64,000 bases of DNA from an uncultured Dechloromonas sp. (lineage in GTDB: Bacteria; Pseudomonadota; Gammaproteobacteria; Burkholderiales; Rhodocyclaceae), in contig NZ_CAMFKO010000009.1 of NCBI RefSeq assembly GCF_945957265.1, forward strand, positions 45,868 through 109,867, read 5' to 3'. Made by a program: the position numbers and the translations under genes. This document shows positions 48,520 through 62,277 of the stretch, piece after piece. Under the pieces are notes generated by a model. The model made no database searches and was not told the DNA's origin. It was given only the letters and a program-made list of their open reading frames with translations. Every line of letters begins with the position of its first letter. Position 1 is the stretch's first letter.

Positions 48520-48791
48520 CGGGAGGGCGGTTGGTTGGGGGCGTCGAGTTTACCACGGGGGGCGCGTCTGCCGGGGTGGGCTGAGGGTTGTCATGGAAAG
48601 TTACTGAATTGCTGCGGCGCAGCGTGATTTCGTAAGTCCTTTGTAAGATTATCCGGGTCTAATGCCGCCTCAACGCTGGCGAGGGGAATGAGGTGTTCTC
48701 CAGCTTGCGCGGCTTTAAACGTCCCGGGGGAAAGCCCGAGATCCGATCGGTTGTTTCAACATAATTGCGAAGTACCGCAGAGGAGAAAAAT

Positions 48792-50756
<1,965 letters not shown>

Positions 50757-54296: not shown

Positions 54297-54363
54297 TTCA
54301 GGACCTTTCCGGCCTGGCGCCGGAGCCCCTGCAACGATAACCAACCATCCTGGGATGCCTGCC

Positions 54364-56514
54364 ATGAAGGCAAAACATCGTTTCATCCTCGCCGTGCTCG
54401 TTCTCGGTCTGTTGATGACCGGGCCTTTTGTCGTCACCTCCTTCCTCGTCTGGCTGGACATGAAGGAGGCCGAGCGCAACATGCTGACCGAGCTGCTGGT
54501 CTCCCGCCTGCCGGTCGGCACGATGATGACGCTGTTCGGTTTCGTGATCGGCGTGCTGGTCCTGCACAAGCTGTTCAAGCAATACGTCGAAGGCTTGTTG
54601 CGCATGGCCGAGACGCTGCGCCTGATGCTCGGCGCCAACCGCAATTTCCGCGTGGCGCCGGAAGGTCCGCCGGAGGTGCAGCAGCTGGCGCAGGCCGCCA
54701 ACGACCTGGCGCAACAGCGCGATGCGCTGATGGACGACGTCGATTCGCAGATCGCCCGCGCCAAGGCCTCGGTCGAGGAGGAAAAGAACCGGCTGGCGGC
54801 GCTGATGTCGGAACTGGCGCAGGCGGTGGTCGTCTGCAACCTCGATGGCCGCATCCTGCTCTACAACAACCGCGCCCGCCTGCAGTTCAAGGCGCTGTCG
54901 CAGGGGCCGACTTCGGTGGCCGGCGGGGCGCTGATCGGGCTCGGGCGTTCGATCTTCTCGATCCTGGAAAAGAGCCAGGTCGAGCATTCCCGCGAGGTCA
55001 TCGACCAGCGCCTGGCCAACGGCAAGACGGCGATCGCCAATTTCATCACCACCACGCGCGGCGGCCAGTTGCTGCGCGTCCAGATGGTGCCGGTGCTCGG
55101 CGGGGCGGGGGAGGCGACGATGTCGGGCTACGTGCTGACCGTCGAGAACATCACGCGCAGCATCGAGGAAGAGGAGCGCCGCGACCAGGCGCTGCATACG
55201 CTGACCCAGGGCAGCCGTTCGGCGATCGGCAACATCCGGGCCGCGGTGGCCAACCTGATCGATTATCCGGACATGGAGCCGGAGCTGCGCCAGCGTTTCC
55301 TGCACGTCATCGACGACGAGGTCGCCCGGCGCAGCCAGGTCATCGACCAGACCATGAACCAGTTTTCCGATGCCATCAAGACGCGCTGGCCGCTGGAGGA
55401 CGTGCTGGGCATCGACATCGTCGCCGCCGCCCAGCGCCGCATCGACGACAAGCTCAAGCTGCCGACCAAGACGGAGGAAATGGACGATGCGCTGTGGATC
55501 AAGGCGGACAGCTTCTCGCTGGTTTTCGCCCTGGTCTCGCTGGCTTCCAAGCTGCAGGATCATTATGCGCCGCGCGAATTGCGCTTCCGCCTGACCTCCA
55601 ATGGCAAGCTGGCCTATCTCGACCTGATCTGGGCCGGCCCGGCCATGTCGTCGGAAACCTTCTACACTTGGGAAATGGAGTCCATGCAGGTCGGCACCGA
55701 AAGCTCGCCGCTGACCCTGCGCGACGTCATCGACCGCCATGGCGGCGAAATCTGGTACGAGCGCGAGAAGGCGGCGCACCGGGCCTTCTTCCGCTTCGTG
55801 CTGCCGGTGGCCACCCCGGAAGCCGAACAGGTGATCGAGGAGCGCCACGTCACCGGCCGCCCGGAATACTACGATTTCGACCTGTTCAAGTTCGAGGACA
55901 AGTCCATCGACCTCGATCGCAAGCTGTCCGAGCTGACCTATACGGTGTTCGATACCGAGACCACCGGCCTGGAGCCCTCGAACGGCGACGAGATCATCCA
56001 GGTCGGCGCCGCGCGTATCGTCAATAACCGCCTGCTGCGCCAGGAAACCTTCAACCAGATCGTCGATCCGGAAATCCCGCTCAAGCCGGAATCCATTCCC
56101 ATCCACGGCATCACCGAGGACATGGTGCGCGGCCAGCCGAACATCGACGTCGTGCTGCCGGCTTTCCACGAATTCTGCGAAGACACGGTGCTGATCGCCC
56201 ACAACGCCGCCTTCGACATGCGCTTCCTGCAACTCAAGGAGGGGCGCACCGGCATCCGCTTCACGCAGCCGGTGCTCGATACGCTGCTGCTGTCGGCCGT
56301 GGTGCATCCGAACCAGGAATCGCACAAGCTGGACGTGATCCTCGAACGCCTCGGCATCACCATCGGCACCCGGCACAATGCGCTGGAGGACGCGCTGGCG
56401 ACCGGCGAGGTCTTCCTGAAACTGGTCAGGCTGCTGGAGGACAAGGGTATCGTCACGGTGCGCCAGGCGCTGGAAGCGGCCGAGAAAACCTATTTCGCCC
56501 GGGTGAAATACTGA
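54364..56514 (+). CDS. membrane sensor with degenerate kinase region fused to DnaQ-like 3'-5' exonuclease
   Basis: Two N-terminal TMs, PAS-like LMSELAQAVVVCNLDGRILLYN, no recognisable H-box, C-terminal FDTETTGLEP/HNAAFDMRFL/RHNALEDA. Confidence 0.88.
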   Translation: MKAKHRFILAVLVLGLLMTGPFVVTSFLVWLDMKEAERNMLTELLVSRLPVGTMMTLFGFVIGVLVLHKLFKQYVEGLLRMAETLRLMLGANRNFRVAPEGPPEVQQLAQAANDLAQQRDALMDDVDSQIARAKASVEEEKNRLAALMSELAQAVVVCNLDGRILLYNNRARLQFKALSQGPTSVAGGALIGLGRSIFSILEKSQVEHSREVIDQRLANGKTAIANFITTTRGGQLLRVQMVPVLGGAGEATMSGYVLTVENITRSIEEEERRDQALHTLTQGSRSAIGNIRAAVANLIDYPDMEPELRQRFLHVIDDEVARRSQVIDQTMNQFSDAIKTRWPLEDVLGIDIVAAAQRRIDDKLKLPTKTEEMDDALWIKADSFSLVFALVSLASKLQDHYAPRELRFRLTSNGKLAYLDLIWAGPAMSSETFYTWEMESMQVGTESSPLTLRDVIDRHGGEIWYEREKAAHRAFFRFVLPVATPEAEQVIEERHVTGRPEYYDFDLFKFEDKSIDLDRKLSELTYTVFDTETTGLEPSNGDEIIQVGAARIVNNRLLRQETFNQIVDPEIPLKPESIPIHGITEDMVRGQPNIDVVLPAFHEFCEDTVLIAHNAAFDMRFLQLKEGRTGIRFTQPVLDTLLLSAVVHPNQESHKLDVILERLGITIGTRHNALEDALATGEVFLKLVRLLEDKGIVTVRQALEAAEKTYFARVKY

Positions 56515-56519
56515 TCGCC

Positions 56520-57575
56520 GTGAGCACCGCGCCCTTGCTGCTTTGCCGACAGCGCATCGACCTGTTTGCCGCGATCGATGCGCTGCCCGCCCTGGACGGG
56601 GCGCCGGCGCTGGCCGCGGCCGTCCGTGCGCACCTGCAGGGGGCGCTGGCCGGCGGCATGGATGGCGTGGCCGCCACCCGCCTGATTTCGCTGTTCAACG
56701 ACCGCCTGACGATGCGGGTTGTCGACCTGACGGCGCGCCGCCATCGCCTGCCGCAGGTGGCGTGGTGCTGGCTCGCCCTCGGCTCCGAGGGGCGGCACGA
56801 GCAGACTTTCGTCACCGACCAGGACAACGGGCTGCTCTTCCATGCCAGCAGCGAACAGGAGGCCGGCGCCTTGCGCGAGCTGTTCCTGCCTTTTGCGCAG
56901 GAAGCGAATCAGCGCCTGGCCGACTGCGGTTTCACCCTGTGTCCGGGCAAGATCATGGCCGGCAATCCGGCCTGGTGCCTGTCGCTCGACGAATGGCGGG
57001 AGCAGTTCATCGAATGGGTGCGTCGTCCCGAGCCCGAAGCGCTGCTCAACGCCAGCATCTTCTTCGACCTGCGCCCGCTGCATGGGGATCTCGCGCTGGG
57101 CGAGCAGTTGCGTACCCTGCTGCTGTCCCTGACGACCAGTACGCCGGCATTCCAGCATCTGATGGCGGCGAATGCGCTGCACGCCGAGGCCCCCCTGAAT
57201 TTCCGCGGCGAGGTCGCGGTCAACGGCGAGGGCGAAGTGGATCTCAAGAAATTCGGCAGCCGGATCTTCGTCGATGCGGCCCGCATCTTCGCGCTGACCG
57301 CCGGCACGCCGAGCGTCAACACCTCGGAACGCCTGCACCAGGCCGGCAGGGCGGTCGGTTTGCCGGAGATCGAGCTGGCCAGCCTCGACGCGGCGTTCTC
57401 CCATATCCTGCGCCTGCGCCTGGTCCAGCAGATTGCCGCTGCCGCCGCGGGAACGGCGGCGGGTTCCGGTCTGAAACCCGCCGCATTGAACGACATGGAT
57501 CAGGCCATCCTGCGCGAGGCGCTCAAGCAGGCCAAACGCCTGCAACAACGTCTCAAGTTAAACTATGCACTCTGA
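56520..57575 (+). CDS. DUF294 putative nucleotidyltransferase (no CBS or cNMP domain)
   Basis: GTG start; LGSEGRHEQTFVTDQDNGLLF nucleotidyltransferase motif; ASIFFDLRPLHGD; DLKKFGSRIFVDAARIFAL. Confidence 0.88.
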   Translation: MSTAPLLLCRQRIDLFAAIDALPALDGAPALAAAVRAHLQGALAGGMDGVAATRLISLFNDRLTMRVVDLTARRHRLPQVAWCWLALGSEGRHEQTFVTDQDNGLLFHASSEQEAGALRELFLPFAQEANQRLADCGFTLCPGKIMAGNPAWCLSLDEWREQFIEWVRRPEPEALLNASIFFDLRPLHGDLALGEQLRTLLLSLTTSTPAFQHLMAANALHAEAPLNFRGEVAVNGEGEVDLKKFGSRIFVDAARIFALTAGTPSVNTSERLHQAGRAVGLPEIELASLDAAFSHILRLRLVQQIAAAAAGTAAGSGLKPAALNDMDQAILREALKQAKRLQQRLKLNYAL

Positions 57576-57593
57576 AGAAGAAACGAGGTTGTC

Positions 57594-59564
57594 GTGACTA
57601 CGCAACAGCAAACAGGGCAGGACATGGTCGTTGGCCAGGTGGAAATGACGCTGCGCGAAAAGGGGCGTACTCGCATGGCCGGCAACACCATCGCATTTCT
57701 TCGCAACCATGCGCCGTTCAACAAAATGCAGCCGGATGCGCTGCAGCGTTTCGCGGAAAAGGCGCAGATTGCGTTTTACCCTGCCGGCAGCGAGATCATC
57801 GGCCCCGATGCGGGTAACGTCCGCTACTTCTACCTGATCGAGTCGGGCAAGGTTCAGGCGCGGCAGGCCGGCGAGGTGACGGTGACCGAGTATTCCATCC
57901 TCAGCCTGGGCGCCGGGGAGGGCTTCCCGATCGGCGCGGTCACCGCCGGGCGGCCGTCCACCAATGTCTATCTGGCGGTCGAAGACAGCTTCTGCTACCA
58001 GTTGCCGGCCGAGGATTTCCTGGCGCTGGTCGCCTCCAGTCCCGAGTTCAACCTGTTCTGCACGCAGTACATCGCCAGCCTGCTCGACCAGTCGCGCCGG
58101 CAGTTGCAGCTCCAGTTCGCACAGCGCGCCAGCGAGCAGCAGACCCTCAATTCCCCGCTGGCCGGCATCGGCTCGCGTTCGCCGATTACCGTGACGCCGG
58201 ATACGCCGCTGCGGGCCGCGCTGGAAACCATGTCGCAGGCCGGAGTCGGCTCGCTGGTCGTGGCCGGCGAGGACCGCAAGGCGGTTGGCGTGTTCACCCG
58301 CAGCGATCTGCTGGACCGCGTGGTGCTGGCCGAGTTGCCCTTGGGCACGCCGGTCGGCGAGGCGATGACGGCGAGCCCGTTCATGCTCGAGGAGCATGCC
58401 ACGGCGTACGACGCGATGTTCGCCATGGCCACCCACGGCATCCGCCACGTGCTGGTGACCGATGCCGAAGGCCGCCTGACCGGCGTGGTCTCGGAGCGCG
58501 ACCTGTTCTCGTTGCAGCGTGTCGGCCTGCGCCAGATTCGGCAGGCCATCGACGGGGCGCACAATGTCGAAGCCCTGCAACAGGCTGCCGCCGACGTGCG
58601 CCAGCTGGCCTTCAACATGCTGGCCCAGGGGGTGGGGTCGGAGCAGCTCACCCAGTTCATTTCGGCGCTCAACGACGCCTTGACCCGCCGTGTCATCCAG
58701 CTCAACCTGGAAAAGCACGCTTTCGACGGCATCGAGTGGGCCTGGCTGGCTTTCGGTTCGGAAGGGCGCGACGAACAGACCTTCAGCACCGACCAGGATA
58801 ACGGCATCGTCTTCCAGCCGCCCGAGGGCGCCTCCGTCGACGCGCTGAAACAGCGTTTCCTGGCCTATGCCCTGGATGTGAACAAGGATCTCGATCGCTG
58901 CGGTTTCCCGCTGTGCAAGGGCAACATCATGGCCAGCAATCCGCAGTGGTGCCTGACGCTCGACGAGTGGAAGGAGCAGTTCGGCAGCTGGATTCGCCAG
59001 CCGCATCCCGATGCCTTGCTCAACGCCACGATCTTCTTCGATTTCCGGCCCTTGTTCGGCAAGGCCGAGCTGGCCGAGGCCATGCGCCGCCATTTGCTGG
59101 CCCTGACGGCCTCCAACCCGATGTTCCTGCGCGCCATGGCCAAGAATGCACTCGATGTCGAGCCGCCGCTCGGCAAGATTCGCGATTTCCTGACCGACCT
59201 CGAAGCCGACCATCCCGGCAAGATCGACCTGAAGAAATACGGTTCGCGCATCTTCGTCGATGTGGCGCGCATCTATGCCATGGCCAGCGGCGTGCACAAC
59301 ACCAATTCCATCCAGCGCCTGCGTCTGGCCGCGCAGCGCCTGAACATACGTTCCGACGAAATCAACGCGGTGCTCGAAGGGCTCAATTTCATCCAGTTGC
59401 TGCGCCTGCAGCACCAGTACCTGGAAGGCGAGCCGGGCAAGCAGGGCGACAACCTGATTGATCCGGAAACCCTGAACGAGCTGGATCGCCGCATCCTCAA
59501 GGAATCCTTCCGTCAGGCGCGCAAGATACAGACCCGTCTCAAACTCGATTACCAGGTGAACTGA
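57594..59564 (+). CDS. cyclic nucleotide-binding / CBS pair / DUF294 nucleotidyltransferase protein
   Basis: cNMP-like YPAGSEIIGPDAGNVRYFYLIESGKVQ; CBS repeats; FGSEGRDEQTFSTDQDNGIVF; DLKKYGSRIFVDVARIYAM. Confidence 0.9.
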   Translation: MTTQQQTGQDMVVGQVEMTLREKGRTRMAGNTIAFLRNHAPFNKMQPDALQRFAEKAQIAFYPAGSEIIGPDAGNVRYFYLIESGKVQARQAGEVTVTEYSILSLGAGEGFPIGAVTAGRPSTNVYLAVEDSFCYQLPAEDFLALVASSPEFNLFCTQYIASLLDQSRRQLQLQFAQRASEQQTLNSPLAGIGSRSPITVTPDTPLRAALETMSQAGVGSLVVAGEDRKAVGVFTRSDLLDRVVLAELPLGTPVGEAMTASPFMLEEHATAYDAMFAMATHGIRHVLVTDAEGRLTGVVSERDLFSLQRVGLRQIRQAIDGAHNVEALQQAAADVRQLAFNMLAQGVGSEQLTQFISALNDALTRRVIQLNLEKHAFDGIEWAWLAFGSEGRDEQTFSTDQDNGIVFQPPEGASVDALKQRFLAYALDVNKDLDRCGFPLCKGNIMASNPQWCLTLDEWKEQFGSWIRQPHPDALLNATIFFDFRPLFGKAELAEAMRRHLLALTASNPMFLRAMAKNALDVEPPLGKIRDFLTDLEADHPGKIDLKKYGSRIFVDVARIYAMASGVHNTNSIQRLRLAAQRLNIRSDEINAVLEGLNFIQLLRLQHQYLEGEPGKQGDNLIDPETLNELDRRILKESFRQARKIQTRLKLDYQVN

Positions 59565-59566
59565 CC

Positions 59567-60232
59567 ATGCTCGGCCTGAAGAAATTCCTGTTTCGCGGCG
59601 GCGCACCGAGCGGCTTGCCGGAGGACGTCAGGGCGTCGCTGGAGGCCTGGCGCAGCAGTACGGCGCCGGGGCTGGACGATCTGCATTTCCATACCCGCTA
59701 CCTGGTCGTCGATATCGTGAGCAGCGGCCTCGATCCCGAAAAGGACCAACTGCTGGCCATTGCCGCCAGCAGCATCTGGCAGGGGGCGATCCAGCCGGAC
59801 GACACCTTCTATGTCGATTTCTCGACATTGGACGGCGAGGGCGCGGCCGTCGACCGCCAGTTGATGGCTTTCCTGCTCTTCGCCGCCAAGGCGCCGATGG
59901 TGACCTATCACGTTCCGTATGTCGGCGGCTTTCTGCAGCGCGCCTACAAGGAGCGTCTCGGCCTCGATTTCCAGCCGCAGTGGGTGGATATGGCCTGGCT
60001 CATGCCGTCGATGTTCGAGGACAAGGGGCATACCGTGATGCCGCTCGACCACTGGCTCGAGCTGTTCGGGATGGGAGGCGGGGAAGGGCGGCGCGACGCG
60101 ATGGCCAACACGCTGCTGCTCGGCCGTCTTTTCCAGATGTTGCTGGTGCGGGCGGTCGGCAAGCAGATCGACACCGCGGCCAGGCTGGTCGACGAGTCGC
60201 GCGCCAGCAGCTTCCTGCGGCGTACCCACTAG
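59567..60232 (+). CDS. exonuclease-fold protein with degenerate active site
   Basis: YLVVDIVSSGLDPEKDQLLAIAA aligns to DnaQ ExoI; VTYHVPYVGGFLQRAYKERL at ExoII position; GEGRRDAMANTLLLGRLF at ExoIII position. Confidence 0.75.
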   Translation: MLGLKKFLFRGGAPSGLPEDVRASLEAWRSSTAPGLDDLHFHTRYLVVDIVSSGLDPEKDQLLAIAASSIWQGAIQPDDTFYVDFSTLDGEGAAVDRQLMAFLLFAAKAPMVTYHVPYVGGFLQRAYKERLGLDFQPQWVDMAWLMPSMFEDKGHTVMPLDHWLELFGMGGGEGRRDAMANTLLLGRLFQMLLVRAVGKQIDTAARLVDESRASSFLRRTH

Positions 60233-60240
60233 TTTTCCCG

Positions 60241-62277
60241 ATGTTGAGGTCGCTGACCCGCCTGCAGCGCTATTACCTGTATTACACAGGCGGCTTTCTC
60301 GCGTTCATCGGGGCGCTGGCCGTTCTCGAGCAGCATGGCATGCCGCCGCGCTGGATCGGTTACGCCTTCCTGATGTTCACCATCGCGATGTATGCGCTGA
60401 TCGGCATCATCAGCCGGACCTCCGACGTGTCGGAGTACTACGTGGCCGGCCGGCGCGTGCCGGCCTTCTTCAACGGCATGGCGACCGGCGCCGACTGGAT
60501 GAGTGCCGCATCGTTCATCGGCATGGCGGGAACGCTCTATCTGTCAGGGTTTCAGGGCCTGGCCTATGTCATCGGCTGGACCGGCGGTTTCGTGCTGGTG
60601 GCGCTGCTGCTGGCGCCGTACTTGCGGCGTTGCGAGCAGTACACCATCCCGGATTTCCTCGGCGCGCGCTACGGCGGCAATTCGATACGCCTCGTCGCCG
60701 TCGGGGCGGCCATCCTCGCCTCCTTCGTCTATGTGGTGGCGCAGATCTATGGCGTCGGCGTCATCACCAGCCGCTTTGTCAGCCTGCAGTTTGAAATCGG
60801 CGTGTTCGTCGGCCTGGCGGGGATTCTCGTCTGCTCCTTCCTGGGCGGCATGCGGGCAGTGACCTGGACGCAGGTGGCGCAGTATCTGATCCTGATCGTC
60901 GCCTACATCACGCCCGTCGCCATCCTGTCGTACAACGTCACCGGCAACCCGATTCCGCAACTGGTCTATGGCGAGGTACTGCAAAAGGTGACGCATCTGG
61001 AGAACCGGCTGTTCGATTCGCCGGCCGAGATCGAGGTGCGTCAGCTGTTCCACGAGCGCGCCGACGTGTACGCCCAGAAAATCATGCAACTGCCGCAATC
61101 GCTGAACAACGAGCGCGAGCAGCTATCCACCCAGATCAATCAACTCAAGGCCAGCGACGCGCAAATGCGCGACATCGTCGCCCTCGAGCGTCAGCGCCGG
61201 GAGTTGCCGCACGACCCGGAGCAGGCCAAGGTGCGCTGGGAGGCGGCGATGTTTTCCGCCGTCGAGCGGAGCCGCAAGCCGATCCATCATGCCGAGGCCT
61301 TTCCCGGGGATACGGAGGCGGAGCAGAATATCCTGCGCATCAATTTCCTGGCCCTGATTTTCTGCCTGACCGTCGGTACCGCTGCGCTACCGCACGTGTT
61401 GGTTCGTTACTACACGACTCCCACCGTACATGAAGCGCGCGAATCGGTGTTCTGGTCGCTGCTGTTCATTCTTCTGCTTTACATTACGGCGCCCGCCTAC
61501 GCCGTGTTCGCCAAGCACGAGGTGCTGTCCCATCTGGCGGAAATCCCCATCGCCAAGCTGCCCGGCTGGGTGACTGCCTGGGCCAAGGTTGGCTTGGTCA
61601 GCATCGAGGACATCAATCTCGACGGGGTGCTGCAACTGGCGGAACTGTCGCTCAATCCGGACGTGATCGTCCTGGCGACGCCGGAAATCGCCGGCATGCC
61701 CTACGTCATCTCCGGACTGGTCGCGGCGGGCGGCCTGGCGGCCGCGCTATCCACCGCCGACGGCTTGCTACTCACCATCACCAGCGCCCTGTCCCACGAC
61801 GTCTACTACCGCATCATCAGGCCGGACGCCTCGACGCAGTTCCGCCTGGTCATCTCCAAATCCATGCTGCTGGTGGTGGCGGTGCTTGCCGCCACGGTGG
61901 CCGCCGAAAAGCCGGGCACCATCCTGTCCATGGTGGCCTGGGCGTTCTCGATTGCCGGGTCGGCATTCTTCCCGGCCCTGGTGCTCGGCATCTTCTGGGA
62001 GCGAGCGACCCGCAAGGGCGCGCTGGCCGGCATGGTGGTCGGCGTATCCTTGTCGCTCTACTACATCCTGCGTGTCGAGTTCGACAGCATTCCCTGGCTC
62101 GGCATCAGCGGCTTCGGGATGGAACCCTGGTTCCACGTGCAGCCCACGGCGGCCGGCTTGTTCGGCGTTGTCGCCGGCTTTGCCACCATCATCGTGGTGT
62201 CGCTGATGACGCAGCCCGAACCGGGCGCAGAAGATTTCCTCACCAAGATTCGTCTGTCGAACGGCAAGGACGCATGA
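60241..62277 (+). CDS. sodium:solute symporter (ActP-like, long-loop SSS)
   Basis: ISRTSDVSEYYVAGRRVPAFFNGMATGADWMSAASFIGMAGTLYLSGFQGLAYVIGWTGGF; LAAALSTADGLLLTITSALSHDVYY. Confidence 0.93.
   Translation: MLRSLTRLQRYYLYYTGGFLAFIGALAVLEQHGMPPRWIGYAFLMFTIAMYALIGIISRTSDVSEYYVAGRRVPAFFNGMATGADWMSAASFIGMAGTLYLSGFQGLAYVIGWTGGFVLVALLLAPYLRRCEQYTIPDFLGARYGGNSIRLVAVGAAILASFVYVVAQIYGVGVITSRFVSLQFEIGVFVGLAGILVCSFLGGMRAVTWTQVAQYLILIVAYITPVAILSYNVTGNPIPQLVYGEVLQKVTHLENRLFDSPAEIEVRQLFHERADVYAQKIMQLPQSLNNEREQLSTQINQLKASDAQMRDIVALERQRRELPHDPEQAKVRWEAAMFSAVERSRKPIHHAEAFPGDTEAEQNILRINFLALIFCLTVGTAALPHVLVRYYTTPTVHEARESVFWSLLFILLLYITAPAYAVFAKHEVLSHLAEIPIAKLPGWVTAWAKVGLVSIEDINLDGVLQLAELSLNPDVIVLATPEIAGMPYVISGLVAAGGLAAALSTADGLLLTITSALSHDVYYRIIRPDASTQFRLVISKSMLLVVAVLAATVAAEKPGTILSMVAWAFSIAGSAFFPALVLGIFWERATRKGALAGMVVGVSLSLYYILRVEFDSIPWLGISGFGMEPWFHVQPTAAGLFGVVAGFATIIVVSLMTQPEPGAEDFLTKIRLSNGKDA

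Follow-up and report, generated by a model that had tools for sequence, protein, structure and literature searches.

Our analysis of the window (the whole 64,000-nt stretch of DNA analysed) reveals a gene for a membrane protein in which a histidine kinase-like module that has lost its catalytic residues is fused to a DEDDh exonuclease that has kept its own. The fusion protein appears to form the output end of a signalling module of three genes, in which a phosphorylated single-domain regulator acts on the dead DHp hairpin, in the manner of DivL, and thereby controls the tethered exonuclease; we put the chance that this reading is correct somewhat above even. The sequence-only reading had proposed a sensor with nuclease output. 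A free-standing sensor it probably is not: the gene is the third of a kinase/single-domain-regulator module, and the regulator, acting on the dead DHp, is indicated as an important input.

Table 1. Genes of the acs-linked run and domains of the fusion protein (positions in the window)
Feature	Position	Strand	Evidence
acs, acetate-CoA ligase	48765..50756	+	NCBIfam TIGR02188 over cut-off, E 1e-291
Symporter (SSS)-fused histidine kinase, 904 aa	51192..53906	+	HisKA E 1e-18, HATPase_c E 2e-30
CheY-like single-domain response regulator, 123 aa	53925..54296	+	Response_reg E 2e-29, no other domain
Pseudo-histidine kinase / DEDDh exonuclease (fusion protein)	54364..56514	+	ORF opens at 54355, Met4 likelier start
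Two membrane helices and HAMP-like segment, residues 4-135	54364..54759	+	helices in AlphaFold model; HAMP by eye
PAS domain, residues 150-268	54802..55158	+	PAS family matches in relatives
Dead DHp hairpin, residues 269-341	55159..55377	+	acceptor His = Gln285; Arg288 (His+3) kept
Dead CA/HATPase-like domain, residues 345-488	55387..55818	+	G1 Asp = Trp426; N and G2 boxes lost
Signature linker RPEYYDFDLF, residues 502-511	55858..55887	+	used as search pattern
DEDDh 3′-5′ exonuclease domain, residues 528-700	55936..56454	+	RNase_T match; PolC exonuclease fold; DEDDh residues kept
DUF294 putative nucleotidyltransferase	56520..57575	+	DUF294 E 4e-44, DUF294_C E 1e-33
cNMP-binding/CBS/DUF294 protein	57594..59564	+	DUF294 E 1e-47, CBS E 6e-25, cNMP_binding E 4e-6
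DnaQ-like protein without DEDDh residues, 221 aa	59567..60232	+	sequence and AlphaFold model
VC_2705-family sodium/solute symporter, ActP-related	60241..62277	+	TIGR03648 762 bits, cut-off 321

Domains of the fusion protein

The ORF of the fusion gene encodes 719 aa, and homologues align from Met4 onward, making 54364 a likelier start than 54355. The AlphaFold model of the protein, built from 58 relatives, has a mean pLDDT of 77 and contains helices at residues 6-35, 38-94, and 106-152; its pTM of 0.43 means that the domain arrangement is not reliable. The periplasmic part is almost nil, comprising two TM helices joined by a loop of about 20 residues. As many as 15 of 20 relatives match PAS families, with a best E of 7e-8, whereas the match of the window protein is weak (E 0.01); PAS positions Y170, N171, and G195 are conserved among members. 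In the linker that precedes the exonuclease, residues R502, D507, F508, and L510 are at least 90% conserved across 58 non-redundant members.

The middle of the protein has the fold of a histidine kinase. A Pfam search of the window protein returns no HisKA and no HATPase match. When its profile is compared with that of the neighbouring kinase, 216 columns align at 99.4% probability (E 2e-21), with the DHp and CA parts each matching separately (E 2e-11 and E 7e-12, respectively), and Foldseek places the middle of the model among histidine kinases (WalK 9a5d, E 4e-19; VicK-like 4i5s, E 1e-13). Profile match and Foldseek agree on the DHp-CA fold of sensor histidine kinases, in line with the PAS/histidine kinase-like membrane protein of the sequence-only reading.

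The residues needed for catalysis are gone. In particular, the profile alignment sets VTHELRTPLTSIR against LTQGSRSAIGNIR of the neighbouring kinase, which places Gln285 at the phospho-acceptor His position. Across 148 full-length relatives, this column holds Glu (79), Asp (42), or Gln (12) and never His, so the phospho-accepting His of sensor histidine kinases is absent; the segment earlier picked out as an H-box without an acceptor motif had been rightly placed. The ATPase region, described there as having no clear N or G boxes, has indeed lost them: the G1-box Asp is replaced by Trp in 147 of the 148, and the N and G2 boxes are absent from the pseudokinase in the alignment. A HisKA/HATPase pair with catalytic residues, which would have contradicted the earlier description, was searched for and not found. 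Judged by its defining residues, the fusion protein is not a functional histidine kinase.

Judged from the same alignments, the loss of kinase residues is more than chance or decay. The Arg at His+3 is retained in 146 of the 148 full-length relatives, no DHp positions other than Arg288 and Glu322 reach 90% conservation in the 58 non-redundant members, and the dead ATP domain has near-invariant residues of its own (W426, W439, H462, and W467). A decaying pseudogene is ruled out by the intact ORF, the conservation across classes, and the new conserved residues.

The C-terminal part matches Pfam RNase_T over residues 531-687 (E 4e-34, 118.9 bits against a cut-off of 24), and Foldseek returns PolC/DnaQ exonucleases for the end of the model (9qrn, rmsd 1.7 Å, 37% identity). 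All five DEDDh residues of the window protein are present (D533, E535, D621, H674, and D679), confirming the earlier statement that the exonuclease keeps all its motifs, and they are intact in all members except three of one family and two that are broken or truncated. The exonuclease is by far the best-conserved domain of the fusion protein among the 58 non-redundant members. By sequence and predicted fold, the fusion protein is a DEDDh exonuclease. It resembles PolC/DnaQ-type enzymes (PolC exo, DinG exo, and Pol III epsilon) in fold and in having all catalytic residues, with 37-38% identity to the PolC exonuclease; in contrast to them, it is membrane-anchored on a pseudokinase, with no polymerase or helicase.

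Several relatives depart from this layout. Reduced alphaproteobacterial forms of about 470-500 aa consist of the membrane part and the exonuclease only and probably reflect a basic role of the nuclease for which no regulator is needed; the PAS domain persists in DHp-short forms. In a 369-aa paralogue from a genome of the same genus (G024, L080:8891-9928), the exonuclease follows the membrane part directly; PAS and kinase-like domains are both missing, and no regulator of this group lies nearby. One gammaproteobacterial family (L064, L066, and L067; genomes G091, G230, and G335) has lost both exonuclease and kinase residues; the three genomes have no symporter-kinase orthologue, and the L067 relative lies inside a cluster that looks, by eye, like lexA-imuA-imuB-X-M16 peptidase-dnaE2.

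Gene neighbourhood and linkage of the module

In the window, acs is followed by genes for the symporter-kinase, the regulator, the fusion protein, the DUF294 protein, the cNMP-CBS-DUF294 protein, the DnaQ-like protein, and the VC_2705-family symporter (Table 1). About 60-70 bases separate the end of the regulator gene from the fusion gene, and the gaps from the fusion gene through to the symporter are 2-20 bases. The partner kinase has its H, N, G1-D, and G2-G invariant in 95 relatives. In 103 relatives of the regulator, the Asp pair, phospho-Asp, and Lys never vary, and the Thr position holds Thr in 101 and Ser in 2. The symporter-fused kinase is the presumed phosphate source.

Co-occurrence was scored in 369 genomes of the class, with thresholds of >700 bits for kinase orthologues and E ≤1e-15 for the fusion protein. 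The kinase is present in 20 genomes, the fusion protein in 19, and both in 14, with about 1 expected by chance. The regulator is near the kinase in 18 of the 20, the remaining two being at contig ends or split over contigs, and the fusion protein is linked in 15 of the 20, one more divergent member counted in. Three gene orders occur (kinase-regulator-fusion; regulator-fusion-kinase; and regulator-kinase-DUF294-fusion, convergent), indicating that the linkage of the module has survived rearrangement, and kinase, regulator, and fusion protein stay together across several gene orders and two classes. Of 80 named loci, most have the order acs-kinase-regulator-fusion. The three module genes of Paracoccus denitrificans PD1222, PDEN_RS25405, PDEN_RS25410, and PDEN_RS25415 on plasmid 1, overlap, which suggests translational coupling.

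A signature scan of GTDB genomes yielded at least 573 relatives of the fusion protein, and a phylum survey found relatives in 46 of 399 genomes; among the matches listed, the nearest named relatives are from Dechloromonas and Azonexus. Thirteen loci, mostly from Accumulibacter, are without kinase/regulator partners; the partner-less Accumulibacter copies were rejected as counter-evidence, being second paralogues in genomes that have a kinase/regulator-linked copy (7 of 7 tested). Many alphaproteobacterial members have the regulator beside them and not the symporter kinase. At one locus (L299, G547), where the usual neighbours are missing, the 1513-aa ORF that precedes the full-length relative has matches of kinase and receiver type and possibly encodes a hybrid kinase that replaces kinase and regulator.

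The run recalls CrbS/CrbR (MxtR/ErdR), the acetate system of Vibrio and Pseudomonas (PMC5715377, PMC8402216, PMC9927547). In both, a symporter-fused kinase is found near acetate genes, and acs, actP, a PP_0354-like CBS gene, and a PP_0353-like RNase_T gene belong to the same functional circle. The window kinase differs in belonging, at 904 aa, to a tighter orthologue group (48-60% identity), whereas the 1171-1342-aa proteins stand at 43-46%, and the regulator, judged by the linked 123-aa gene, is receiver-only and has no DNA-binding domain.

The genes for the two DUF294 putative nucleotidyltransferases (56520-59564, +) follow directly 3′ of the fusion gene, and reduced alphaproteobacterial loci, too, have a DUF294 protein along with the exonuclease; speculatively, an enzyme that adds nucleotides and one that removes them might share a substrate. 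The DnaQ-like protein (59567-60232) appears to be a pseudo-exonuclease: D-I-V replaces D-x-E in motif I, R/N replaces H/D in motif III, and the motifs are degenerate in relatives too; its model (pLDDT 90) has DEDDh-like strand/helix order. It sits where P. putida has PP_0353, and we infer that the association of a nucleotidyltransferase, an exonuclease-like protein, and an acetate symporter is wider than the pseudokinase arrangement.

Kinship and joint loss of regulator and DHp

A pseudokinase profile run against its own genome gives the DHp of the neighbouring kinase as second-best match (E 4e-10); the other matches are weak and fall mostly in the HAMP/PAS region. The pseudokinase DHp and the partner kinase probably share a recent origin. 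Since its DHp is the closest relative in the genome of the DHp of the partner kinase, the pseudokinase may have retained a regulator-docking surface on its dead hairpin.

The DHp is complete wherever a regulator lies nearby, and none of the loci with a shortened or lost DHp has a regulator nearby. Specifically, a full DHp was defined by a PAS-to-CA spacing of at least 60 residues and a short one by a spacing of 0-47, spacing being used in place of the DHp HMM score because the HMM is too insensitive in alphaproteobacteria; regulator presence was scored locally, within 5 kb of the locus. The spacing is full at 124 of the 124 loci with a regulator within 5 kb, and a nearby regulator is found at 0 of the 32 DHp-short or kinase-less loci. 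Full-length members without a nearby regulator comprise 15 second paralogues, 4 at contig ends, and 5 others. Fisher's test gives p 1.5e-20 for every locus and p 7.5e-29 with paralogues and contig edges left out, values that cannot be taken as true probabilities, because the loci are related. "Short" requires four changes on the exonuclease tree and "lost" also four, of which strongly supported branches force at least 4 and at least 3, respectively; shortening or loss of the DHp has occurred about seven independent times. Within one genus, two genomes have neither regulator nor DHp, and four relatives have both. This joint loss supports the regulator as the partner that the DHp reads; a shared pathway in which the two do not touch could also account for the linkage and the joint loss.

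A second DHp-bearing neighbour occurs in some alphaproteobacteria that have the kinase and regulator but no adjoining fusion protein, in which the adjacent gene encodes an HTH, a DHp-like hairpin, and ScfRs. Such HTH-ScfRs transcription factors with an embedded hairpin (L312, L314-L317) have His at the acceptor position. Profile comparison with the partner kinase matches the hairpin to its DHp (94% probability, E 1.5e-7) and gives no CA-domain match. These proteins, found beside the same kinase/regulator pair, are like the ScfR/RamB family, in whose similarity network Pden_1785 clusters with a two-component system (PMC10370305). They are unlike the fusion protein in having a DNA-binding output rather than a nuclease and His at the aligned position. 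We count the shared DHp-type neighbour in favour of the regulator reading the DHp. It is a serious possibility, to which we give a little less than an even chance, that the nuclease is the direct post-translational output of a two-component system whose one regulator has at least two "DHp receiver" targets, the exonuclease and the ScfRs transcription factor; the dead DHp would then be a portable docking module for phosphorylated regulators.

Proposed mechanism and alternatives

Among dead histidine kinases that read a regulator, DivL has been studied best. In Caulobacter, this pseudo-histidine kinase reads DivK~P, and the substitution R553A strongly weakens DivK~P binding (PMC4211667). DivL and the fusion protein both have a histidine kinase fold with PAS input, a replaced acceptor His, and no kinase activity (predicted here), both have an Arg at acceptor+3 (R553 in DivL, R288 here), and a single-domain regulator is the presumed partner in our case. 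They differ in that Glu, Asp, or Gln stands for His here, whereas DivL has Tyr, in the Trp at the G1 Asp position, and in output, which is a fused exonuclease here and control of another kinase in DivL; as far as tested, the two are not orthologues. By analogy, the fusion protein would work most like DivL, with predicted regulator docking and an enzyme as output. A further precedent is EpsW, a single-domain regulator that activates the enzyme EpsZ (PMC12802240): post-translational control of an enzyme by a one-domain regulator is the putative arrangement here too, whereas EpsW is proposed to act on the transferase directly, not via a dead DHp.

In the mechanism that we propose, the symporter-fused kinase, with its intact catalytic residues and gene linkage, would phosphorylate the CheY-like regulator, and the phosphorylated regulator would dock on the dead DHp of the membrane-anchored pseudokinase, as DivK~P does on DivL. 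Docking would alter the DHp/CA arrangement, with the dead DHp/CA acting as either a brake or a switch, and would turn the DEDDh 3′-5′ exonuclease on or off at the membrane. More speculatively, the nuclease might trim a single-stranded 3′ end, perhaps of RNA or a short oligonucleotide, and trimming might tune the use of acetate and short-chain acids. The mechanism draws on the fold, the loss of kinase residues, the retention of nuclease residues, the three-gene linkage, the DHp kinship, and the joint regulator/DHp loss. The conserved Arg at His+3, a residue needed for regulator binding in DivL, argues for a regulator reading the dead DHp, and the DivL and EpsW precedents count in favour of a path from kinase through regulator and DHp to exonuclease. 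Counting against it are the full-length members without a nearby regulator, the lineage that keeps the protein with dead exonuclease residues, and the alphaproteobacterial members without an adjacent symporter kinase.

Full-length copies without a nearby regulator would fit a self-contained sensor, the idea of the sequence-only reading, in which a metabolite, redox, or membrane state is sensed by the PAS/HAMP/membrane part and only relayed to the nuclease by the pseudokinase, with no direct regulator contact, as would the retention of the PAS domain with its conserved residues and of the HAMP-like and membrane parts. We consider this unlikely, since it leaves the tight linkage to a single-domain regulator and the joint loss unexplained, and the PAS domain stays in DHp-short forms. 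Signal might also flow in reverse, with the pseudokinase serving as scaffold, sink, or allosteric partner that controls the regulator or active kinase, for instance by forming heterodimers with the kinase or by protecting regulator~P; the nuclease would then be a second function under separate control. The DHp kinship to the kinase and the three members that keep the rest of the protein with a dead exonuclease are consistent with reverse flow; however, the exonuclease is the most conserved domain and is what survives loss of the kinase part, and the dead-exonuclease lineage has no kinase orthologue, making this quite improbable. The about 470-500-aa forms and the 369-aa paralogue, having only membrane part and exonuclease, would suit a constitutive membrane-tethered nuclease, for which the pseudokinase is a dimerisation or anchoring stalk and linkage reflects co-expression with acetate genes. 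That we hold to be very unlikely, as every locus with a nearby regulator has a complete DHp and near-invariant Trp and His residues persist in the dead ATP domain.

If DivL-like control of the exonuclease is correct, there is a direct path from a two-component phosphate signal to nucleic-acid turnover. It would also give a likely input for a family whose annotation goes no further than "exonuclease domain-containing protein" or "DNA polymerase III subunit epsilon", and add a layer of acetate/short-chain-acid control in Dechloromonas/Azonexus, Accumulibacter, Thauera, Aromatoleum, Zoogloea, and Paracoccus, genera of environmental importance. The arrangement points to a nuclease, and not solely a gene switch, as recipient of a phosphate signal. 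It offers an enzyme-fused protein comparable to DivL in hundreds of genomes, with a natural loss series that points to domain-partner pairs.

We found no described PAS/kinase-DEDDh fusion in the open-access literature, and two scans of viral contigs, bearing on a mobile or viral origin of the gene, found no relatives of the fusion protein. Anti-phage defence was rejected: PADLOC matches are confined to the generic DEDDh stretch (DEDDh, E 2e-41; candidate PDC-S48, E 1e-31), and the neighbours are acetate genes. A second fusion elsewhere in the genome was likewise rejected, as the other long-ORF RNase_T match (L003) looks, by eye, like an ordinary exonuclease-GIY-YIG protein of UvrC/Cho-like type.
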